Below are positions 25,166-36,133 of a DNA stretch of 64,000 nt, piece by piece. The translations under genes and the position numbers were made by a program. Source of the stretch: Paenibacillus peoriae. GTDB lineage: Bacteria > Bacillota > Bacilli > Paenibacillales > Paenibacillaceae. The notes under the pieces were generated by a model. It made no database searches. It saw only the letters and a list, made by a program, of their open reading frames with translations, and was not told the DNA's origin. Every line of letters starts with the position of its first letter. The stretch's first letter is position 1. Location: assembly GCF_022531965.1 (NCBI RefSeq), contig NZ_CP092831.1, positions 1,392,001 through 1,456,000 of the forward strand, written 5' to 3'.

Positions 25166-26068
25166 TCAGGTTCGGTGTGCCTTGGTGCGCATATGCTTGA
25201 GGACATCTTCTACAGGTTGGGGAGGAACCTTGTCGATCAAGTCGCCTACCTGATTTAGTCGTTCCTCAATATTCAGCAAATGGTAGTCAAGTGGTGATAC
25301 ATCTTGCCGTACCTCTTCCCATGTTAGCGGAGTGGAGACCGTAGCGCCGGGGCGTGCCCGCGGGGTATAAGGAGCGGCCAGAGTTTTCCCCTGATAATGC
25401 TGCAAATAATCAAAATAGATGGCTGTTCCACGATCCTTCTTTAACCTTTCGAGTGTGAACAGATGCGGGTGCTTTTCTGTCACAAACTGTCCGACTAATA
25501 GCCCGATGCTGCGAAGTTCGTCGAAGGTTATGCCTGTACGGATCGGAACGATAATTTGTACACCTGTGGCCCCGGATGTTTTGGGGACGGAGTCCAAACC
25601 AAGCGAAGCCAGTACTTCACCGACAATAGAGGCTGCCTCCATAATACGTGGCTCCACCTCTCTGGATGGATCAAGGTCAATCATCCATTCACAGGGCAGC
25701 TTGTTTCCCGCTTCGTGCAGAGAGGGGTGGAATTCCAACGCAGCTTGATTACCAAGCCAGAGGAGTTGTGGCAATTTGCCGAGCACGATATATTCAATGC
25801 CATCATGCAGGGCGGTTTCAATATAGTCCGGCCGAGGACGTGGGGCATTTTTCTGATAAAAAAAATCACCGTGAATCCCATGTGGCCAGCGGATGACGGT
25901 CAGCAGACGATGATGACAATATTTGAGCAGGAAGGGAGCCAGTACCGCGAGCTTGCGAAGATACAGCGCCTTAGTCACGCCTGCTTCAGGCCACAGCGGT
26001 TTATCCGGGTTGGTGATAGGAATTTCCTGACCTTCAATGGTAATAGTACCTTTAACAGCTTGTCCCAT
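25166..26068 (-). CDS. ligD: LigD-type DNA polymerase/primase domain protein (NHEJ)
   Basis: A 300-aa archaeo-eukaryotic primase-type polymerase of the LigD POL group. It fills in and adds ribonucleotides at broken DNA ends during Ku-dependent end joining. Evidence: start ITNPDKPLWPEAGVTKALYLRKLAVLAPFLLKYC, RWPHGIHGDFFYQKNAP, the metal-binding DLDPS (two Asp), KTSGATGVQIIVPI, and RGTAIYFDYLQHYQGKTLAAPYTPRARPGATVSTPLTW. It is a stand-alone polymerase domain; no ligase domain is seen in this window. Ku lies 9 kb away beyond the lasso peptide cluster. Confidence 0.93.
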   Translation of the reverse strand: MGQAVKGTITIEGQEIPITNPDKPLWPEAGVTKALYLRKLAVLAPFLLKYCHHRLLTVIRWPHGIHGDFFYQKNAPRPRPDYIETALHDGIEYIVLGKLPQLLWLGNQAALEFHPSLHEAGNKLPCEWMIDLDPSREVEPRIMEAASIVGEVLASLGLDSVPKTSGATGVQIIVPIRTGITFDELRSIGLLVGQFVTEKHPHLFTLERLKKDRGTAIYFDYLQHYQGKTLAAPYTPRARPGATVSTPLTWEEVRQDVSPLDYHLLNIEERLNQVGDLIDKVPPQPVEDVLKHMRTKAHRT

Positions 26069-26189: not shown

Positions 26190-26241
26190 TTGACAAGATA
26201 CATTATGTATCATAAATTTATAATAAAAATACGATATGTAT
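26190..26241 (+). promoter_or_regulatory. Promoter and Xre-type operator of the lasso peptide cluster
   Basis: TTGACA (26190-26195) with TAAATT 17 bp on, the same arrangement as at 3528. The palindrome GATACATTATGTATC (26197-26211) overlaps the spacer and a second half-site pair ends in ATGTATCT (26235-26242). TTGACAAGATAC and TGTATCATAAATT are identical to the Xre-gene region at 3528-3556. This is good evidence that the 3106-3474 repressor or a close paralogue controls the cluster. Confidence 0.75.
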
Positions 26242-26281
26242 CTATTAAAGTGTCTTGAGCAGAGGTAGAGGAGGAGTTTGC

Positions 26282-27550
26282 TTGATTGAAAAGCAAGGCG
26301 GAGGGCTGGTATTCCTGTTAAGTGTCCCTCGGAGTGGAAGCTCGTTGCTTACCGCCATTTTGCAAAACCATTCCCGCCTGTTTGCCACGCAGGAAATGTG
26401 GTTTCTGCTCAGTTTATATGATCTTCCGCAGTCACATACACGCCCATATGGAGGAACAGGGATACTCCGGCAATTTTTTAAAGGTATGGTCCCCTCCGAC
26501 GTATTGGAGCAGGCCTCCCGTTCGTATGCACTTGAAATATATAATGGTTTGCTTCAAGGTACAACAGCAGATATGCTTATCGACAAATCCCCGCGTTACT
26601 ATACGGTGCTGGAATTTATAGACCGTTTATTCCCTGCTGCCCGCAGGTTGTGGCTTATCCGAAACCCTTTGGCCATTGTGGCCTCATTCAAAAAGGTCAA
26701 TCAGCTACGGAACGGACGTTTTCAACTACTGGAGGAACTGGGGAGTCCGCATTTTAATATGAAAATGACGGATATTACGGTTGGTTTGTTCCGTTATACT
26801 CATTATTTTGCTACACCTCATCCACTTGCATACCCGCTTAGATATGAACAGCTCGTATCCAATCCAACGATGGAGATCGAGAAACTGTGCAGTTTTTTGG
26901 GAATCCATTATGAAGCGGGGATGGAAAAGTACGGAGATTTCGCGGATACGCCCAAATCCAGTCTTTTTTATAGTATGGGAGCGGGCGATCCATTCGTAGG
27001 AGAGCATGAACAGGCGCATCAGGATTCGGTACATAGCTGGCAACATGTGTTGAGTAAAAGGGAAATTGAGCTGTATTGCAGAAGCATTGGGTCCCGCATG
27101 TTTAAGCAACTTGGTTACGCGGAAGCGCTGGAGCAGGCTGAACAGATGACTGGAGTTCGCTTTGAAGATGAGCCAGATATGGAGCTGCTGAGTCGACGTA
27201 CACAACAATTCCTCCAGCAAAGCGGCTTTGAATGGAAGGCAGCTTATCGGATGCTGGAAGAACAGGATACAGATAACAGAGAACTCATGACAAATGCAAT
27301 CCATCATACTCCACCCCAAGATCCGACATGGATGCATGTGGACCAGAGCGTGAACGATCGACGGATCCAATCACTGGAAAACAGGTTGGCACATAGCTAT
27401 GAGGAGCGGAACCGTCTTATCGCTCAGCTTCAAAGCTATCAACGCCCACATCAAGGTCTCCGATCTCGCAGCCTCTTGGCCCGTAAACTCAGGTACTTGG
27501 CGTCTGTAGCATTATCAAGTATAGGAAAAGAAAAAGGGGGAAGAACGTGA
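26282..27550 (+). CDS. Sulfotransferase of the lasso peptide cluster
   Basis: A 422-aa PAPS-dependent sulfotransferase-like protein. The phosphosulfate loop SVPRSGSSLLTAILQNH lies at residues about 12-30 and the 3'-phosphate site RLWLIRNPLAIVASFKKV near 120. The remaining fold is typical of the Sulfotransfer family (LRYEQLVSNPTMEIEKLCSFLGI). Residues about 355-385 form a coiled coil (RIQSLENRLAHSYEERNRLIAQLQ). TTG 26282 follows GGAGGAG; the frame also allows 26255. Its stop overlaps the cyclase start by GTGA, so it belongs to the operon. Inferred substrate: the lasso precursor or product, Tyr19 of the core being the best candidate; sulfation of another molecule is not excluded. Confidence 0.8.
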   Translation: MIEKQGGGLVFLLSVPRSGSSLLTAILQNHSRLFATQEMWFLLSLYDLPQSHTRPYGGTGILRQFFKGMVPSDVLEQASRSYALEIYNGLLQGTTADMLIDKSPRYYTVLEFIDRLFPAARRLWLIRNPLAIVASFKKVNQLRNGRFQLLEELGSPHFNMKMTDITVGLFRYTHYFATPHPLAYPLRYEQLVSNPTMEIEKLCSFLGIHYEAGMEKYGDFADTPKSSLFYSMGAGDPFVGEHEQAHQDSVHSWQHVLSKREIELYCRSIGSRMFKQLGYAEALEQAEQMTGVRFEDEPDMELLSRRTQQFLQQSGFEWKAAYRMLEEQDTDNRELMTNAIHHTPPQDPTWMHVDQSVNDRRIQSLENRLAHSYEERNRLIAQLQSYQRPHQGLRSRSLLARKLRYLASVALSSIGKEKGGRT

Positions 27551-29472
27551 GTGCGATTGCCGGAATCTATAGCTTTGGGCATGAGTCTGTATGCACCGAA
27601 GAAGGCGGGAAAATGATGCAGGCCCTGCGGAAATATCCCGCTGACCGCGTATGCGCTTGGTGTGAAGGCTCTATTTTTTTGGGTTGTCATGCCCAGTATG
27701 TGACCCCGGAATCTGTTCATGAGCGTCTTCCCTTTTATGATGAGCTAAGAGATTTGGCAATCACGGCGGATGCGATTATTGACAATCGTTCCGAGCTGTT
27801 TGAACGGCTGGGAGTTGAGCAGGAACGGCGGCAAGATATCACGGACAGCGAGCTGATTTTGCTGGCATATGACAAATGGGGAGTGGAGGCAGCCAGTTAT
27901 CTGATAGGTGATTTTGCCTTTGTCATTTGGGATGCCAAGGAATATCGATTATATGGTGCTCGAGATATGACAGGCCATCGTACGCTGTACATCTACCAAC
28001 ATGACCGAGGATTCGCGTTTAGCACGGTAGTCGCTCCGCTTTTGGCCCTGTCCTCTCTGCGAAAAGAACTGCATGAACCGTGGCTGGCCGAATTTTTGTC
28101 CATCCGCACCATGCAGGAATCCGTCGATATCGGGACGACCGCCTACAAGCATATCAACCAGCTTCCTCCTGCACATTGGTTCACTATGGAGGAGGGGAAG
28201 CGAACCCTTCATAAATATGCATGCCTGGATGAGGTAGAGCCACTGCGGCTCAAAACAGGAGGTGAGTACATAGAAGCTTTCCACGAGGTGTTCACACAGG
28301 CGGTCACTGCCCGATTACGGACGCATCGCGCTGTAGGGGCTGCCTTGAGCGGAGGGCTGGATTCCGGAGCGGTTGCCAGCTTTGCCGCGCCAGCGCTGCA
28401 CTTGCAACAAAAGCCGCTACATGCCTACAGCTATGTGCCTGTTCAAGATTTTACAGACTGGACACCGCCTACATTGCTGGCGAACGAACGAAGCTACATT
28501 CATTCTACGGCTCGCTATGTGGGCAACATTCACGAGAACTATATGGATTTTGAGGGAAAAAGTCCGTTTTCAGAAATTGATATTTGGCTGGATTTGATGG
28601 AGGCTCCCTACAAATATTTTGAAAACTCCTTCTGGATCAGAGGTTTTTATGAAAAAGCGCAGGAACACAATGTCGGTGTACTGTTGACCGGGGCACGAGG
28701 CAATTTTTCCGTATCGTGGGGCCCTGCACTGGACTATTATGCCCGTCAGTTTCGTCATTTGCACTGGTTGCAATCCTTTCAGGGATTGAGGCGGTACAGC
28801 AAGCTTACGGGCAGGCGTATGTCTCATCTACTCCCCGTGATGTTGAAGAAAGCGACTTCACTTGAACCTCGTTTATGGCTGCGGCGTGGCCATCGCAGTC
28901 CCGTTCCTTCACTGATTCACCCAGAGTTTGCCCAACGGATGAATGTAGAAGATATTCCTGTATTGAGCGGAACAGGTTGGATGAAAAATGCCGATCAGAC
29001 GAGAAAAGAGAAGTTCTCAAATTTGGCGATTGCCAACAAAAATGGTGTGGTCGCGACCAAACTTTCACTACGTTACGGCCTATGGGAACGTGATCCGACC
29101 GGGGACAGCCGGGTAATTCGCTTTTGCTTATCGGTGCCTTTTGAGCAGTATGTACAAAACGGTCGGGACCGTGCCCTCATTCGTACGGCCATGCGTGATC
29201 ATCTACCTGATGATGTTCGGTTGAACCAGCGGGTACGCGGCGTGCAGCCTGCAGATTGGCTACATCGTATGCTTCCTTGTTGGGATACGTTTATGGGGGA
29301 GCTTCAACTGATGTGTCATGATTTACGAGCCGCCGAATATCTCAATATTGAGTTTATTAAGACGGCTATGGCAAAACTTCACCACCCCGGCCCTGAGCAG
29401 GCGTCTGATCCGAATATAAGACTACTCATGCATAGCCTGATTGTGTACCGTTTTCTCTGTAGATTCAACTGA
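27547..29472 (+). CDS. Lasso peptide cyclase (asparagine-synthetase-like, C protein)
   Basis: A 641-aa homologue of asparagine synthetase B that adenylates the ring-forming Asp/Glu side chain and joins it to the core N-terminus. The glutaminase-like N-terminal half begins MSAIAGIYSF, without the catalytic Cys2 of true asparagine synthetases, as in lasso cyclases. IIDNRSELF and GDFAFVIWDAKEYRLYGARDMTGHRTLYI follow. The PPi loop is GAALSGGLDSGAVASFAA near 263-280. It starts at GTG 27547 in a 4-base overlap with the sulfotransferase. The C-terminal end is followed 52 bp later by the precursor gene. Confidence 0.92.
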   Translation: MSAIAGIYSFGHESVCTEEGGKMMQALRKYPADRVCAWCEGSIFLGCHAQYVTPESVHERLPFYDELRDLAITADAIIDNRSELFERLGVEQERRQDITDSELILLAYDKWGVEAASYLIGDFAFVIWDAKEYRLYGARDMTGHRTLYIYQHDRGFAFSTVVAPLLALSSLRKELHEPWLAEFLSIRTMQESVDIGTTAYKHINQLPPAHWFTMEEGKRTLHKYACLDEVEPLRLKTGGEYIEAFHEVFTQAVTARLRTHRAVGAALSGGLDSGAVASFAAPALHLQQKPLHAYSYVPVQDFTDWTPPTLLANERSYIHSTARYVGNIHENYMDFEGKSPFSEIDIWLDLMEAPYKYFENSFWIRGFYEKAQEHNVGVLLTGARGNFSVSWGPALDYYARQFRHLHWLQSFQGLRRYSKLTGRRMSHLLPVMLKKATSLEPRLWLRRGHRSPVPSLIHPEFAQRMNVEDIPVLSGTGWMKNADQTRKEKFSNLAIANKNGVVATKLSLRYGLWERDPTGDSRVIRFCLSVPFEQYVQNGRDRALIRTAMRDHLPDDVRLNQRVRGVQPADWLHRMLPCWDTFMGELQLMCHDLRAAEYLNIEFIKTAMAKLHHPGPEQASDPNIRLLMHSLIVYRFLCRFN

Positions 29473-29524
29473 TCGAATCTGTTCGGTCAGACAGTTCGCC
29501 ATTCGTTGGAGGGGAGGTGATGAA

Positions 29525-29653
29525 ATGAGTGAAAAAGAATGGCAGGAACCGACGATAGAGGTGCTGGATATTAGCCAGACCATGGCGGGTAAAGGCTGGA
29601 GACAGATTGATTGGGTGTCCGACCACGATGCCGATATCTATAATCCAAGCTAA
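29525..29653 (+). CDS. Lasso peptide precursor (A protein), 42 aa
   Basis: ATG 29525 after GGGGAGGTGATG. Leader: MSEKEWQEPTIEVLDISQTM. It contains the RRE-binding pattern (W6-x2-P9-x-I11, where many relatives have Tyr-x2-Pro-x-Leu) and Thr19, the conserved threonine two residues before the cleavage point. The predicted 22-residue core starts AGKGWRQIDW and ends in IYNPS. Ala1 and Asp9 would form a 9-membered-lactam ring, leaving a 13-residue acidic tail with Asp13, Asp15, Asp17, Tyr19 and C-terminal Ser22. Known paeninodin has the same Ala1/Asp9 layout and a C-terminal Ser phosphorylated by its kinase (recalled knowledge). The core sequence itself differs strongly from paeninodin after AG-x-G. 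Confidence 0.9.
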   Translation: MSEKEWQEPTIEVLDISQTMAGKGWRQIDWVSDHDADIYNPS

Positions 29654-29772
29654 TAGATGGTTATACATGTTATACATGCAGCCAATGTTGGACTGGAAGC
29701 CAGACAACTGGGCCGATAACGATTGAATGAACGAAAATAGCATGATCCATTGGACTCGTATTCAATATACAG

Positions 29773-29830
29773 CCGTCTTTATTTCTTTCGGGTTAGAGGT
29801 GTTGCCCAAGAAATAAAGACGGGATTTTTA
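29773..29830 (+). terminator. Perfect stem-loop between precursor and kinase genes (attenuator or processing site)
   Basis: CCGTCTTTATTTCTT (29773-29787) pairs perfectly with AAGAAATAAAGACGG (29808-29822). The 20-base loop has a GGG/CCC inner pair, and GATTTTTA follows. This can act as a partial terminator or as a 3'-end stabiliser so that precursor mRNA outnumbers mRNA for the maturation enzymes. Confidence 0.75.
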
Positions 29831-29852
29831 AAGACAGAGGAGTGAGTCCTAC

Positions 29853-30896
29853 GTGCATGACAGGAGTGCAAATGTCAGTTGGACGAAATATACGGCCTTT
29901 GGACTCAGGATTGCGAGTGAGCTGAATCTGCCTGAGCTGATGCTGGCAGCACCAGGAGTGGTAGAGGATGTAGTCATTCGACAGGCTGATTTGACTGCAT
30001 GGAGTGGTCAGCTGGAGCAGGCCAATTTTGTGATGCTGGATGAGCGATTTATGTTCCGAATACCGGGCACGGCCATTTATGCCGTCAGGGAAGGCAAGGA
30101 GATCGAGGTAAGTATATTCTCTGGGGCTGATCCTGACACCGTGCGGCTGTTTGTGCTGGGTACATGCATGGGTGTTCTGCTGATGCAAAGACGAATATTA
30201 CCTATTCACGGAAGTGCGGTCGTCATCGGGGGGAGGGCCTACGCATTTGTGGGTGAATCGGGTACGGGGAAATCGACATTGGCTGCTGTTTTTAGGCAGG
30301 CAGGTTATCAGATGGTTAGTGATGACGTGATTGCTGTAAAAGCTACGGGTTCCTCTGCCATTGTGTATCCAGCTTATCCGCAGCAAAAGCTGGGGCTTGA
30401 AAGCTTGCTCCAACTGGAGGCTTTACGGGAGAACAAGCATGTACGCAAAAGAAAGCACATACAGTCCCTAACTGACGACAATTCTGTAATGCCACAATAC
30501 ACAGATCTGCGTACGCTTGCAGGTGAGCTGAATAAATATGCCGTACCCGCCGTAGATGATTTTTATAACGATCCGCTGCCCTTAGGGGGCGTATTCGAGC
30601 TGGTGGCAGATTCTCCAACCCGTGCGTTGATGCGCGAAGGGGAGCTAGTGGCGGTTACGGAACAGCCCTTGAACGTTCTGGAGTGCTTGCATACATTACT
30701 ACAACATACATATCGCAGGGTGATTATTCCGCGAATGGGTTTGAGTGAATGGTCGTTTGATACAGCGGCTAGGATGGCTCGGAAAGTGGAGGGCTGGCGC
30801 TTGCTGAGGGATAGTTCCGTCTTTACTGCGTCCGAGGTTGTACAACGGGTACTTGAACTCATTCGTAAGGAGGAAAAGAGTTATGGCAGCCACTAA
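29853..30896 (+). CDS. HPr-kinase-like lasso peptide kinase (K protein)
   Basis: A 347-aa protein whose C-terminal half resembles HPr kinase/phosphorylase: HGSAVVIGGRAYAFVGESGTGKSTLAAVFRQAG (Walker A near 134-142) and VSDDVIAVK (Asp pair near 156). It lacks the HPr-recognition context and sits in the cluster where paeninodin-type kinases phosphorylate the C-terminal serine of the precursor. The likely target is Ser42 of the precursor (core Ser22). The N-terminal 125 residues (LRIASELNLPELMLA...) are of the family's usual beta-rich type. GTG 29853 follows AGAGGAGTGAG. It overlaps the RRE gene by 14 bp. Confidence 0.85.
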   Translation: MHDRSANVSWTKYTAFGLRIASELNLPELMLAAPGVVEDVVIRQADLTAWSGQLEQANFVMLDERFMFRIPGTAIYAVREGKEIEVSIFSGADPDTVRLFVLGTCMGVLLMQRRILPIHGSAVVIGGRAYAFVGESGTGKSTLAAVFRQAGYQMVSDDVIAVKATGSSAIVYPAYPQQKLGLESLLQLEALRENKHVRKRKHIQSLTDDNSVMPQYTDLRTLAGELNKYAVPAVDDFYNDPLPLGGVFELVADSPTRALMREGELVAVTEQPLNVLECLHTLLQHTYRRVIIPRMGLSEWSFDTAARMARKVEGWRLLRDSSVFTASEVVQRVLELIRKEEKSYGSH

Positions 30897-31185
30897 TCCA
30901 GCTAAGGATCATTATCGCGTCATTTACAATGAAGAGGTCTACGTCAGTGATATGGACGGAGAAAAAGTGATGATGAGCATTAACACTGGTAAATATTACA
31001 ATTTAGGCTACACAGGAGGACGAATCTGGGAACTGGCAGAATCCGGTCCTTCACTTGGCGATATCGTAACTGTCCTGACGAACGAATATGAGGTGGACGA
31101 GGAACAGTGCAGACAGCAGGTACATACCTTTGTGGCTGAGTTGGAGCGGGAAGGACTGTTAAAGCTTCTACGGGAGCCGGTATAA
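30883..31185 (+). CDS. PqqD-like RiPP recognition element (B1 protein)
   Basis: A 100-aa PqqD-fold protein that binds the leader peptide and presents it to the peptidase and cyclase. Diagnostic stretch: DMDGEKVMMSINTGKYYNLGYTGGRIWELAESGPSLGDIVTVLTNEYEVDEEQCRQQVHTFVAELEREGLLK, a winged-helix RRE. AAGGAGG at 30867-30873 is 9 bp before ATG 30883; an open frame upstream (from 30838) lies within the kinase gene and is not used. Ends 1 bp before the peptidase gene. Confidence 0.92.
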   Translation: MAATNPAKDHYRVIYNEEVYVSDMDGEKVMMSINTGKYYNLGYTGGRIWELAESGPSLGDIVTVLTNEYEVDEEQCRQQVHTFVAELEREGLLKLLREPV

Positions 31186-31186
31186 C

Positions 31187-31672
31187 ATGCGGATACAACG
31201 GCTTCTTCTCCTGTCTCCAGAAGTCAGAAGATTGTTGCCGGAAGCCTGGCTGGAGCTGGGATGGGCGAGGCTGCGCCAGCGTCGTTCTTTTTGGGATTAC
31301 TCAAGGGCTTGGGGCATACGTATGGAAGAAACCCCATGGCAGTGTGACGTTGGGCAAGAGAAGTCCATTCAGCAGATTTCACACGCTGTAGAGCTGGCAA
31401 GCAGTTATACTCCTTGGCGTAGTAGTTGTCTTGTACAAGCCGCTGCGGCGATGACGTTGCTGGGGCGCAGGAAACTGGACTGCACGCTGTATCTGGGTAC
31501 AGCCAAAAATGCCGCTGGACGCTTGGCTGCACATGCATGGGTACGTAGCGGACCGATTTATGTTACGGGGAAACGGGAGATGGAAGCATTTACGGTGGTG
31601 GGGATATTCGGAAGACGTGCTGTGATGGATACAAATAAGAATATGGAAGATAAAAGTAGTTCTTTACTTTAA
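31187..31672 (+). CDS. Lasso leader peptidase, transglutaminase-like (B2 protein)
   Basis: A 161-aa Cys-His-Asp protease of the transglutaminase_2/lasso B2 family that removes the leader after Met20 of the precursor. Cys81 (SSCLVQAAAAMTLLGRR) and His116 (AAHAWVRSG) are present, the Asp is probably in the following strand. The N-terminal 60 residues (LLPEAWLELGWARLRQRRSFWDYSRAW) are as expected for the discrete B2 form that works with a separate RRE. The start is 1 bp after the RRE stop. Confidence 0.9.
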   Translation: MRIQRLLLLSPEVRRLLPEAWLELGWARLRQRRSFWDYSRAWGIRMEETPWQCDVGQEKSIQQISHAVELASSYTPWRSSCLVQAAAAMTLLGRRKLDCTLYLGTAKNAAGRLAAHAWVRSGPIYVTGKREMEAFTVVGIFGRRAVMDTNKNMEDKSSSLL

Positions 31673-31700
31673 TGCGATGAGACACGAAGGAGAAGAATGC

Positions 31701-33194
31701 ATGCCCACCAAGTCTGTTTTGGAACTTGCGAATTGGAATGAGGATCAAGAATTAACGTTGTTACTCTCTCTATTGGGGAAGGACGTTATTCATTGGCAGG
31801 ATACGACTGCTGCTACCCAGCTGCGTGAGATGGATTGGGTCCGCTTTTTACGTCTGACCGAGCACCATCGAGTGGTACCTACGGTGTATCTCCAGCTAAA
31901 AACATTGAATCATCCATTCATTCCCGCAGAATTGTTGCGAAACCTTCAGGCGCAATATCATCGAAACACGCTTCGCATGCTCCATCTTCAAGCAGAAGCC
32001 GAGCGTCTGACCAGGCTGCTCATAGCTCATGGAATTCGTGTGCTTATGTTGAAGGGGCCTGCTCTGGCGCAGCAATTATACGGGGATGTTTCTCTGCGTA
32101 CTTCCAAGGACATAGACTTACTCATTGCCCCTGACGATATGGATGAGGCTGAGCATTGGATGCAGGAAGCTGGATATTCGTCCAAGAGCGGAGAAGTGCG
32201 TGTCCTTGGCAGTTGGAAATGGAAGGACCATCATGCATCCTATTTACATCCGCAAAAACGGGTAGAGATAGAGTTGCATTGGCGGCTTCACCCGGATGGG
32301 GGTGGGGAACCCTCTTTTAACGAGCTGTGGAACTGCCGGAAAAAGGGCAAAGCTGCAGGAGCCATTCGGCAGGTACCGTTGGGATCTGCCGACAACAGGA
32401 CTGTGATGACGTCCTGTATGTATACGCTTGGCAGCGAGCATCAATTTCTGTACTTGAGTGCGCATGGTGCGCGTCACGGTTGGTTCAGGCTGCGCTGGCT
32501 GGTTGACATCGACAGGCTTGCGATATGTGCTGTCGATTGGGAGGCGCTACTGCCGATGATGCGCCGCTACGGGGGCCTGCCTGCTGGCGGGCAGGCTTGG
32601 GCACTCGCCGCTGCGCTGTTGGGTACGCCGATACCGGAGCCGATGCGTCCGGTATCGGCTACCCGGCAGGCACATAGGCTCGCGCTGAGCGCGCTGGCCT
32701 TCATGCAGGCCAGCGTACCCGCACTGTACCCGATCACCCACGGGTCGGGTACAGGTAGGCTTGCTCCATCAGAGCTGCTGCACAGCAGAGCCTTGGCGGA
32801 GCAAGCGGAGGCCGCCCCTCCAGGTGGCGGTCCTTCAGTATGCAGTACCTCTGGCGAAGCAGCCATGCTTGCCACCCGTGGCGTTACTAGCATCACGGAA
32901 GATGCCAGTAACGACAATCATAATCCGATGAGCACCGCTGCCAGTTGTGCCCCGATGACTCCAGCTGCTGCCTCCAGCCAAGTCATGACCAAAAACAGGG
33001 CTGTCTATCAGCCGGTCAGCCGCACTTACTTGCTTTCCTTAAAAGAGCCAAGACACAGACTATGGTATCTCATCAGCCGTTTGTTTCCTTCTACGGGCGA
33101 TTCGAGCGTTTTTCCATTGCCTCGCCAGCTGCATTTTTTGTATATCCCTTTACGTCCATTTCTCTGGCTGAAGCGGCGATTTTCAAAGCACTGA
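31701..33194 (+). CDS. Nucleotidyltransferase-family protein of the lasso cluster (N protein)
   Basis: A 497-aa protein of the uncharacterised nucleotidyltransferase family (PF14907-like). The active-site stretch is LMLKGPALAQQLYGDVSLRTSKDIDLLIAPDDMDEAEHWM, with the D-x-D metal ligands near 137-139. Such a gene regularly accompanies paeninodin-type kinases; its reaction is not settled. Residues about 290-405 are a GC-rich, Ala/Pro/Ser-rich, low-complexity stretch with an array of perfect inverted repeats at DNA level; the conserved ending (RHRLWYLISRLFPSTGDSS... LRPFLWLKRRF) resumes afterwards. ATG 31701 follows GAAGGAGA. It may be a fold-preserving insertion. Confidence 0.8.
   Translation: MPTKSVLELANWNEDQELTLLLSLLGKDVIHWQDTTAATQLREMDWVRFLRLTEHHRVVPTVYLQLKTLNHPFIPAELLRNLQAQYHRNTLRMLHLQAEAERLTRLLIAHGIRVLMLKGPALAQQLYGDVSLRTSKDIDLLIAPDDMDEAEHWMQEAGYSSKSGEVRVLGSWKWKDHHASYLHPQKRVEIELHWRLHPDGGGEPSFNELWNCRKKGKAAGAIRQVPLGSADNRTVMTSCMYTLGSEHQFLYLSAHGARHGWFRLRWLVDIDRLAICAVDWEALLPMMRRYGGLPAGGQAWALAAALLGTPIPEPMRPVSATRQAHRLALSALAFMQASVPALYPITHGSGTGRLAPSELLHSRALAEQAEAAPPGGGPSVCSTSGEAAMLATRGVTSITEDASNDNHNPMSTAASCAPMTPAAASSQVMTKNRAVYQPVSRTYLLSLKEPRHRLWYLISRLFPSTGDSSVFPLPRQLHFLYIPLRPFLWLKRRFSKH
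32575..32913. repeat. Array of about eight hairpins inside the nucleotidyltransferase gene
   Basis: Perfect or near-perfect inverted repeats follow each other: GCCTGCC/GGCAGGC (32575/32590), GCCGATACCGGA/TCCGGTATCGGC (32627/32648), CGCGCT/AGCGCG, CGCTGGCCT/AGGCCAGCG (32692/32707), GTACCCGA/TCGGGTAC (32726/32745), CTGCTG/CAGCAG (32775), AAGCA/TGCTT, and CGTTACT-x-GCATC/GATGC-x-AGTAACG (32882/32901). GC is clearly above that of the neighbouring genes. Reading frame is kept throughout. Confidence 0.75.
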
Positions 33195-33202
33195 CTCGAT
33201 AG

Positions 33203-33318
33203 AGGATTTTGTGAAAATCCAATAAGCGGCTTTCAATGAACAATATATAGATCGAAATGGTCTAGTTCGTCTATATAATGCACTTTGGAGCGATTGGGAT
33301 CGAATTTTGCAAAGTCCT
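33203..33318. repeat. Two GGATTTTG...AAAATCC-type palindromes before the lasso exporter gene
   Basis: AGGATTTTGTGAAAATCC (33203-33220) and GAATTTTGCAAAGTCCTG (33302-33319) resemble the perfect palindrome at 22488. They bracket the 140-bp gap between the nucleotidyltransferase and the exporter. Confidence 0.4.
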
Positions 33319-33336
33319 GAATAAGGAGTGTGCATT

Positions 33337-35196
33337 ATGGTTCACCTGCGATTATATATGACAAAGCTGTATAGCGTGAACGGCGGTGCGTTATTTCTCA
33401 ATATTGGGTGTATGATCATTGTCAGTCTACTGGAGGGCTTTGGCATTTATATGCTTGTTCCTATGCTGGCGGCCATCGGCGTATTTGTCGGTCATTCAGG
33501 GATGCCATTTCTGTCTGATGGATTGGATCATTTTTTGCCGTTCGTTCCTAAAAGCTGGCTATTGCCGGGGATGTTGATGGTTTTTGTAGTGCTGCTTACA
33601 GGGCAGGCTTTGCTTCAGCGTTACCAATCCATCCTGAATTCGCGGATTCAGCAGCGTTTTATGCGTTCTCTTCGAATAGACGTGTACACTTCCTTTATGA
33701 AGGCGCAGTGGGCCTTTTATTTGCGTCAGCGTAAATCTGATTTTAGCCATGTGATGACGACCGAGCTGGCGCGTGTCAGTCAGGGGACGAATTTGCTTCT
33801 TCAACTGACTACAGCCGTCATGTTTACGCTGATCCAGATTGCGCTGGCTTTTTGGTTATCCCCCTCTTTAACCGGACTGGTATTTCTGAGTGGATTGGGG
33901 CTGTTTGTCGTGTTCCGCCGCTCCATTCGAAATGCCAAACAATTAGGTGATCGTACGACTGAACTGTCACAGGTTTATTTTGCTGGAATTACGGATCACA
34001 TGAACGGTATGAAAGATATAAAAAGCAATCTGTTGGAAGCGGCGAATATCCATTGGTTTCGCTCCCTGACGCAACGCATGGAGGATAATACGACTCAATT
34101 TGTCCGGCAAAATGCGACCACACAGTTTTTTCATCGTGCAGTGGCAGCTGTTTTTGTCGCTTGTGTCATATTTATATCGCTGCAGTGGCTGCATGTTACA
34201 CCTGAAAAACTGATTGTGCTGATTCTTATATTTTCCCGCTTATGGCCTCGATTTGCTCTTATTCAAGCGAGTCTGGAATACATCATGTCTATGATCTCCG
34301 CTTTTGAAAGTGTCACCAAGGTGCAACAGGAGTGCGAAGCTTTCACAGATCCGTCATTGATTGCACTTGCATCCTCTGAGACTCGCGTTCCATCCGATCC
34401 ATCGGTAGTTAATCTATCATCTGCATCTGAACGGCAACCCCTGTCCCTTCGTCAGGGGATTGAATGCAGCCATCTGGATTATCGCTACGAGGGTGCAGCA
34501 GAGCCTGCACTGCGTCATATTAATTTGTTCATACCCGCCCGGGAAATGACAGCCATTGTAGGGAAATCAGGAGCAGGCAAAAGTACAATGGTCGATGTCC
34601 TGATGGGTTTTTTACGTCCAACAGGGGGGCAGATTACAATAGACGGGCTTGTTCTGGGCGACGAATTATTGCCCCAGTGGCGGCAGTCGTTTGGCTACGT
34701 GTCACAAGACCCATTTTTATTTCATGCGACTGTCCGCGAAAATTTGATGCTGGCGGATAAGGATGCTAGTGAGCAGCAGCTATGGGAGGCGTTACATTTT
34801 GCAGCAGCAGACAACTTTGTATCCAGACTGCCCGAAGGGCTGGACACGATCATTGGAGATCGCGGGATTCGTCTGTCTGGAGGAGAACGTCAACGGCTAG
34901 TATTAGCACGGGCTATCTTGCATCATCCTCCGATACTTATATTAGATGAAGCGACAAGTGCGCTGGATGGTGAACATGAAGCCGCAATTCAGGCAGCACT
35001 GGAACGGATGAAAGGTCAAATGACGCTGATCGTCATCGCTCACCGCCTGTCAACCATCAGACATGCGGATCAAATTGTCGTACTGGATCAAGGCGAGGTC
35101 ATACAGCAGGGGAACTACCGCCAACTGGAACAAGAGGAGCGGGGGGCGTTTAGTCAGCTACTATCGTATCAAAGCAGTGTCACCGCCACCCCTTAA
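33337..35196 (+). CDS. Lasso peptide ABC exporter (D protein)
   Basis: A 619-aa half-transporter: six membrane helices in the first 310 residues, then an ATPase domain with Walker A IVGKSGAGKSTMVDVLMGF near 409, Q-loop YVSQDPFLFHATVRENL, signature RLSGGERQRLVLARAIL, Walker B ILILDEATSALDGEHE and IVIAHRLSTI. It works as a homodimer, exporting the mature peptide and giving self-immunity. AAGGAG sits 8 bp before ATG 33337 (the GTG at 33328 overlaps the ribosome site). A polar insertion at about 340-375 separates the two domains. It ends 22 bp from convergent ku. Confidence 0.92.
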   Translation: MVHLRLYMTKLYSVNGGALFLNIGCMIIVSLLEGFGIYMLVPMLAAIGVFVGHSGMPFLSDGLDHFLPFVPKSWLLPGMLMVFVVLLTGQALLQRYQSILNSRIQQRFMRSLRIDVYTSFMKAQWAFYLRQRKSDFSHVMTTELARVSQGTNLLLQLTTAVMFTLIQIALAFWLSPSLTGLVFLSGLGLFVVFRRSIRNAKQLGDRTTELSQVYFAGITDHMNGMKDIKSNLLEAANIHWFRSLTQRMEDNTTQFVRQNATTQFFHRAVAAVFVACVIFISLQWLHVTPEKLIVLILIFSRLWPRFALIQASLEYIMSMISAFESVTKVQQECEAFTDPSLIALASSETRVPSDPSVVNLSSASERQPLSLRQGIECSHLDYRYEGAAEPALRHINLFIPAREMTAIVGKSGAGKSTMVDVLMGFLRPTGGQITIDGLVLGDELLPQWRQSFGYVSQDPFLFHATVRENLMLADKDASEQQLWEALHFAAADNFVSRLPEGLDTIIGDRGIRLSGGERQRLVLARAILHHPPILILDEATSALDGEHEAAIQAALERMKGQMTLIVIAHRLSTIRHADQIVVLDQGEVIQQGNYRQLEQEERGAFSQLLSYQSSVTATP

Positions 35197-35218: not shown

Positions 35219-36133
35219 TTAAGTTTCTTTACGTTTGGCAGTGCTTCTTTTCTTTTTGACTGGAGTCGGAGAGAGGTTGTCGCCTGCCACCGCCTGCTGT
35301 GCTGTTGGGGCTGCTGGTTTACGCGCAGGGCGTTTTTTCGCAGCAGGACCGGGATCGGTAACGACAGGTTGCACTGCCTCGATGCTGGCCTGAAGGGCGG
35401 CCATTAAATCTACTACATTGGTCTGAGGCTGGGTTGGGGCGATTCGCACCTCTTCACCAGCCACTTTATGCTGAATGAGGTCCAGCAGACGCTCGCGGTA
35501 CTGATCCGTATACTTGGCTGCATCAAAAGGTGTAGATAGCTGCTCAATCAGCATTTTGGCCATGGTCAGCTCCTTCTCTTTAACCTCTTCCTGCCCCGGT
35601 AAGTTAGGAACTTGAGCAATGGGACGAATTTCATCGGGGTAAAACATCGTCTCCACCGCCAAACATTCATCCAACACCCGAATCGCCGCCAAGCTGCTTT
35701 TAGAGCGGATGGAGATTTGGGCAATCCCGATTTTCCCGGTATCCTTCATTGCATTCATGAGCAGCTTATACGCATTGGAGCCGGCCTGATCCGGGGATAA
35801 ATAATACGTTTTCTGAAAGTAAATCGGATCAATTTCCTGCAAATCAACAAAATCCAAAATCACGATATTTTTATCCGCTTGTCCGCTAACTTGCTCCAGT
35901 TCCTCCTTGTCGAACATGACAAATTTTCCTTTTTCATATTCGTAGCCTTTTCCAATTTCCTCCCATTCGACCTCCTTGTCACAAACGGGACACTTTCGTA
36001 CATAGCTAAGTGGGCTTCCACACTCCTTGTGAATGTAACGCATGGAAATGTCCTTATCCTCCGTAGCTGAAAACATTTTAACGGGCACATGAACCAGCCC
36101 GAAGCTGATCGCGCCTTTCCAGACCGTATGCAT
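35219..36133 (-). CDS. ku: Ku homologue (NHEJ DNA end-binding protein)
   Basis: A 304-aa homodimeric ring protein that holds DNA ends and recruits LigD. The core matches bacterial Ku: MHTVWKGAISFGLVHVPVKMFSATEDKDISMRYIHKECGSPLSYVRKCPVCDKEVEWEEIGKGYEYEKGKFVMFDKEEL, YFQKTYYLSPDQAG, and LTMAKMLIEQLSTPFDAAKYTDQYRERLLDLIQHK. The last 45 residues are Lys/Pro/Ala-rich (AAKKRPARKPAAP, KKKRSTAKRK), the DNA-binding tail of extended Ku forms. Encoded on the same strand as ligD but separated from it by the lasso cluster. Confidence 0.96.
   Translation of the reverse strand: MHTVWKGAISFGLVHVPVKMFSATEDKDISMRYIHKECGSPLSYVRKCPVCDKEVEWEEIGKGYEYEKGKFVMFDKEELEQVSGQADKNIVILDFVDLQEIDPIYFQKTYYLSPDQAGSNAYKLLMNAMKDTGKIGIAQISIRSKSSLAAIRVLDECLAVETMFYPDEIRPIAQVPNLPGQEEVKEKELTMAKMLIEQLSTPFDAAKYTDQYRERLLDLIQHKVAGEEVRIAPTQPQTNVVDLMAALQASIEAVQPVVTDPGPAAKKRPARKPAAPTAQQAVAGDNLSPTPVKKKRSTAKRKET

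Follow-up and report, generated by a model that had tools for sequence, protein, structure and literature searches.

The cluster described here encodes a lasso peptide and opens with a gene for a sulfotransferase; where such a gene is present, the peptide core tends to carry a distinctive tail with a serine or threonine three residues after the ring aspartate. It lies in a 64,000-nucleotide stretch of Paenibacillus peoriae DNA (the window), part of a 5.84 Mb genome on a single contig. We consider it very probable that the sulfotransferase (S) acts in this lasso pathway. There is an even chance that it is a peptide sulfotransferase resembling the tyrosylprotein sulfotransferases (TPST), dependent on 3′-phosphoadenosine 5′-phosphosulfate (PAPS), with Ser/Thr12 of the core as acceptor. 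Just short of even we place the broader proposal of a Paenibacillaceae-wide class of lasso peptides in which S would O-sulfate a loop Ser or Thr, and not Tyr, at an [ST]xxDxD motif, giving an internal sulfate together with a C-terminal phosphate or phosphoglycan. Gene content, gene order, coupling, the cofactor residues and the core tail linked to S are read from the sequence itself.

The genes form a single run on the + strand (26190..35196), in which a promoter-like site is followed by S, the cyclase (C), the precursor (A), a kinase (K), the recognition protein (B1), the leader peptidase (B2), a nucleotidyltransferase-like protein (N) and an exporter (D). Profile matches recover all eight genes in the order given by the original prediction (Table 1). 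The junction of S and C reads AACGTGAGTGC, where the GTG start of C at 27547 overlaps the TGA stop of S at 27548-27550, the GTGA overlap that had been claimed. The PadeA-family precursor, split B1 and B2, a lasso cyclase and an ABC exporter are the components of a paeninodin-family cluster; the cyclase falls below the NF033535 cut-off of 525 bits, while its Asn_synthase and GATase_7 matches exceed theirs. K matches PF07475 with E 6e-6 and 26.2 bits, below the cut-off of 33.3. Its motifs and the ...NPS end of the precursor were read by eye; on this reading K matches the His-Lys-Asp-Asp residue set and the core ends in Ser, as in the paeninodin family. That motif of lasso kinases is named in the accessible part of PMC9266682. 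A PF14907-type N beside K is, as judged by profile match, the pseudomycoidin-type arrangement. B1 is assigned an ATG start overlapping K, the longest open frame beginning at 30838.

The start of S is likely the TTG at 26282, behind GAGGAGGAG, and not the TTG at 26255 that opens the longest frame, because relatives align from the former. Within the PRSG.S loop P16, R17, S18, G19 and S21, and within the RNP...S segment R127, N128, P129 and S135, are invariant in 20 of 20 aligned sequences; we take these to be the 5′-phosphosulfate loop and the Arg/Ser of the 3′-phosphate site, respectively. By its conserved residues S is thus a PAPS-dependent sulfotransferase. Structural comparison matches the catalytic domain to the tyrosylprotein-sulfotransferase-like fold, closer to peptide and acyl sulfotransferases than to polysaccharide enzymes. 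The best sequence matches among solved structures are 4gbm and 4gox, the CurM and olefin-synthase sulfotransferase domains, which belong to polyketide pathways and act on an acyl alcohol. In a separate collection, the named S genes nearest to that of the window (79-83% identity) are from Paenibacillus sp. BJ-4, P. brasilensis, P. maysiensis and P. terrae. At one locus (L070, a single genome) S and the cyclase form one open frame of 1109 aa from stop to stop, possibly a natural fusion or else a sequencing slip. A similar candidate at L297 was rejected, as its frame spans a run of N marking an assembly gap.

How constant is the company that S keeps? Among 394 genomes of the family, B2 is matched in 268 and S in 105, three of the latter being fragments or weak. 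We took 160 stretches: 90 around S matches (90 of 114 S match rows), 69 around the best-placed B2 matches among those listed that had no S nearby, and a second locus of the window's own genome (L221). All were annotated, with the window, by models seeded from the window; a locus termed S− has no S in the stretch, and several such genomes carry S elsewhere. There are 90 S+ lasso loci, the window included, one of them (L151) with a degraded S. K is present in 90/90, and S lies directly 5′ of C in 85 of the 89 where both are called as separate genes. S, K and N thus sit in one conserved operon, as had been predicted. The 70 S− stretches (L221 included) comprise 50 lasso loci with K, 30 of which have N, one lasso locus with N and no K, and 19 where these models found no B2 or cyclase. 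Dozens of related loci show the same combination of S, cyclase, precursor, kinase and B2, so that their grouping is more than chance; the comparison between strains that the original prediction had called for does not find S to be an unrelated neighbour. A sample of 398 genomes from the window's phylum gave four S matches at E 1e-20, all in the window's genus and one of them in its own genome. A separate collection of 79 loci bears the names Paenibacillus, Cohnella or uncultured Paenibacillaceae, with two exceptions, a 'Bacillus sp.' metagenome-assembled genome (L297) and 'Neobacillus mesonae' (L282). Nothing was found in the viral-contig scan or the Rfam scan.

The precursor consists of a 20-residue leader MSEKEWQEPTIEVLDISQTM with Thr at −2, followed by the core AGKGWRQIDWVSDHDADIYNPS. 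Because of this Thr, cleavage is expected after T-M, giving a nine-residue Ala1-Asp9 ring. The accessible text of PMC7829367 places the predicted cut in a relative's precursor one residue further on, with a ring of eight residues; the position three after the ring acid stays the same. At that position S or T is found in 67/79 distinct S+ cores, or 67/67 once 12 cores are set apart post hoc. Of the same 67 cores, 66 have D at +6 and 65 have D at +8, while position +10 holds Tyr in 52 and a hydroxyl in 62. The corresponding numbers for 48 S− cores are two for S/T at +3, four for D at +6, seven for D at +8, one for Tyr at +10 and three for a hydroxyl at +10, and both S− cores with S/T come from recent losses of S. 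These counts leave out L151, seven unparsed precursors and six distinct S− cores lacking a parsed ring acid, and include one S− core of doubtful parse (L161, ring at 7). The idea of the ring+3 position was written down, in wording meant for loci outside the family, before the loci of the separate collection were looked at; among these, all 13 distinct cores show S/T at +3 within a complete [ST]xxDxD, and 9/13 have Tyr at +10.

A Fisher P of 4e-30 on the first core set ignores ancestry and is not used as evidence. On a cyclase tree there are seven changes of S and five of T12; the tree is quick and midpoint-rooted, and on it gain and loss of S are indistinguishable. L136 and L297 carry both S and T12 inside a clade of S− paeninodin-like clusters. 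L073 offers a comparison made by nature: in its core, AGKGWKEIDWVSDHDADLVNPS, only Ser12 and the C-terminal Ser bear a hydroxyl on the side chain. S is intact at this locus and under purifying selection, the ratio of nonsynonymous to synonymous substitution rates (dN/dS) being 0.125-0.166 in four comparisons. If S acts on this peptide, then, the acceptor would be Ser12 or something carried on Ser22. From their place in the tree, L157, L159 and L151 appear to be recent losses: S survives as fragments in L159 and L151 and is not recognisable by the cyclase in L157, and all three cores retain Ser12.

Several observations weigh against Ser/Thr12 as the acceptor. Independent evolutionary events are few: there are four independent pairs on well-supported branches, of which two agree and two do not differ (sign test 0.5). 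The 12 cores set apart come from S+ loci and have no S/T12 (0/12), and they were set apart after the motif was seen to be missing, making the plain count 67/79; 11 derive from second C-A-K cassettes (GGPNG...) and one from an other-strand cluster at L103. With few exceptions the new cores belong to this one bacterial family, and are therefore out of sample, not out of clade. Both N and Tyr19 track S, as set out below, and the enzymes with bound peptide nearest to S are Tyr sulfotransferases. Since Tyr19 also follows S, the S-type tail behaves as a package, in which position 12 could serve recognition instead of being the acceptor.

The second cassettes (core GGPNG.PDKNGKG...) occur in the S+ loci L083, L109, L115-L118, L120, L125, L126, L128 and L129, and apparently rely on the same B1, B2, N and D as the main cluster. 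The sulfation motif is absent from their 11 cores.

Might S instead sulfate a sugar that N has attached to the C-terminal phospho-Ser? We regard this as unlikely, though the strongest of the alternatives. N is in the stretch in 87/90 S+ lasso loci; of the other three, one is cut by a contig end and two have an N match elsewhere in the genome. The best NCBIfam match of S is the nodulation protein NoeE, scoring 129 bits where the cut-off is 500. The original prediction named no sulfation site and omitted that PsmN, the N homologue of pseudomycoidin, is tied to hexose on phospho-Ser in the accessible sources, which provides a further possible acceptor. Sulfation of the sugar fails, however, to predict the [ST]xxDxD tail, which S− cores with N lack save for two recent losses of S; the fold of S points away from polysaccharide enzymes; and the sole N match in genome G308 is about 19 kb from S. 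Two apparent cases of S without N, at L084 and L103, were withdrawn on finding N matches just outside the stretch (G319) and at that distance (G308). By eye, the lasso genes of L081, L087 and L084 adjoin sugar-nucleotide and polysaccharide-type genes, fitting a remark in the accessible part of PMC13381572 that paeninodin clusters are often near capsule loci.

Slightly less likely still is sulfation of the tail Tyr19 within the acidic DxD[IL]Y, in the manner of TPST or RaxST. Tyr at ring+10 is found in 61/80 S+ vs 1/48 S− cores, and the nearest peptide-bound structures speak for this residue. Yet 19/80 S+ cores lack Tyr there, seven of them lacking any hydroxyl at that position, and five S+ cores have no Tyr at all (L073, L111a, L136 and L150 of the first 67 and L297 of the 13 new), including L073 with its selected S. 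Tyr19 as the only acceptor, our first idea, was demoted for these reasons. That S has no peptide role, being a hitch-hiking neighbour or acting on another substrate such as exopolysaccharide, is improbable: L157, L159 and L151, close to the window, keep the other lasso genes with S absent or degraded, but the S/C coupling, conservation across genera and S-specific core tail stand against it.

With Ser/Thr12 as acceptor, S would move sulfate to the side-chain oxygen of this residue, which follows the ring Asp by three positions, with D15 and D17 of the core as guides; it would probably modify the precursor ahead of threading, the order reported for the kinase. K would phosphorylate the C-terminal Ser, the kinase site according to the available passages of PMC8498205 and PMC9266682, and N would probably add a sugar to that phosphate. 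B1 and B2 would take off the leader, C would close the Ala1-Asp9 ring and D would export the product. The mature peptide would then be sulfated in its loop and would end in a phosphate or phosphoglycan.

The architecture of the cluster is already described; the survey and the site prediction are our additions. In their accessible parts, PMC8498205, citing Zhu 2016, describes some Firmicutes lasso clusters in which a sulfotransferase comes first and B2 and D flank a nucleotidyltransferase; PMC11381294 says that Zhu et al. reported both enzymes in P. polymyxa CR1; and PMC4289311 noted in 2014 that certain lasso clusters hold an HPr kinase and a sulfotransferase. With K in 90/90 S+ loci a product both phosphorylated and sulfated, as originally predicted, is a natural expectation, but these sources contradict the claim that the combination was undescribed. 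Judged from the citing passages, the CR1 cluster, kinase-bearing with the sulfotransferase at the start and the nucleotidyltransferase between B2 and D, has no nameable architectural difference from that of the window. Searches for lasso peptides with a sulfotransferase or sulfation, covering titles, the openings of abstracts and selected passages of mostly open-access papers, yielded no characterised sulfated lasso peptide and no report of the enzyme's acceptor or product.

Paeninodin (P. dendritiformis C454) shares with the window the PadeA-family leader, the kinase and the C-terminal Ser. Paeninodin-like S− loci of the L186 type, whose core we take to be that of paeninodin, have no S in the stretch, and Gln at core position 12 where the window has Ser. 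Pseudomycoidin (Bacillus pseudomycoides) has kinase and nucleotidyltransferase as in the window, making glycosylation of phospho-Ser plausible here; in contrast to the window, the accessible sources name no sulfotransferase for it. RaxX and RaxST of Xanthomonas, as partly available sources present them, are likewise a bacterial peptide with its own sulfotransferase; unlike our reading of the window, the peptide is non-lasso and the acceptor is Tyr.

Position 26190, where the original prediction starts, is the first base of a TTGACA box, and the promoter spacer holds the palindrome GATACATTATGTATC. GATACA-N3-TGTATC occurs within 200 bases 5′ of the assigned S start in 36/91 loci scanned, the window included. 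The palindrome GATACANNNTGTATC, a possible operator of some regulator, is found at one further site in the genome (L309), which by eye adjoins permease-like and acyltransferase-like genes. Between precursor and kinase, the region 29745-29845 has a minimum free energy of −29.8 kcal/mol (z −3.4); the hairpin and U-tract there were missed by a consensus scan. By eye, the operon lies between LigD-polymerase-like (25166-26068, −) and Ku-like (35219-36133, −) genes, and may split a DNA end-joining pair. The second lasso-like locus, L221 (G000:C1:5625000-5642000), has cyclase-like, B1-like and ABC transporter genes by the window-seeded models and a Pfam match to Transglut_core3; the precursor model seeded from the window recognised no precursor in it.

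Table 1. Features of the lasso peptide cluster, in window coordinates.
Feature	Position	Strand	Evidence or remark
Promoter-like site, TTGACA-17-TAAATT	26190..26218	+	Palindrome in spacer (26197-26211), possible operator
S, PAPS-dependent sulfotransferase, Sulfotransfer_3 type, 422 aa	26282..27550	+	PF13469, E 2e-25
C, asparagine-synthetase-like lasso cyclase, GTG start	27547..29472	+	NF033535, 348 bits; Asn_synthase, GATase_7
A, PadeA-family precursor	29525..29653	+	NF033524, 57.2 bits (cut-off 27)
Core Ser12 codon (ring acid+3), first residue of [ST]xxDxD and predicted site of sulfation	29618..29620	+	Core comparison
Core Tyr19 codon, rival sulfation site	29639..29641	+	Core comparison
C-terminal Ser22 codon, expected kinase site	29648..29650	+	Available kinase-site passages of PMC8498205, PMC9266682
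Hairpin then U-tract between precursor and kinase	29773..29822	+	Terminator- or attenuator-like
K, HPr-kinase-like lasso precursor kinase	29853..30896	+	PIHGS, GESGTGKST, SDD; PF07475
B1, PqqD-like RRE (RiPP recognition element) protein	30883..31185	+	NF033536, 111.5 bits (cut-off 80)
B2, transglutaminase-like leader peptidase	31187..31672	+	NF033537, 101.3 bits (cut-off 33)
N, NTP_transf_5 nucleotidyltransferase-like protein	31677..33194	+	PF14907, 227 bits
D, ABC exporter	33328..35196	+	Profile matches

A sulfotransferase has been mentioned in lasso clusters since 2014-2016, and the core motif linked to S now opens the enzyme to a direct test. It tells mass spectrometrists what to seek, with natural controls in the strains that have lost S and in a Val19 precursor, which the accessible part of PMC7829367 lists as identical in two cave strains. 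If the proposal is true, a bacterial peptide sulfated on Ser or Thr would represent unusual chemistry and offer a new label for lasso engineering.
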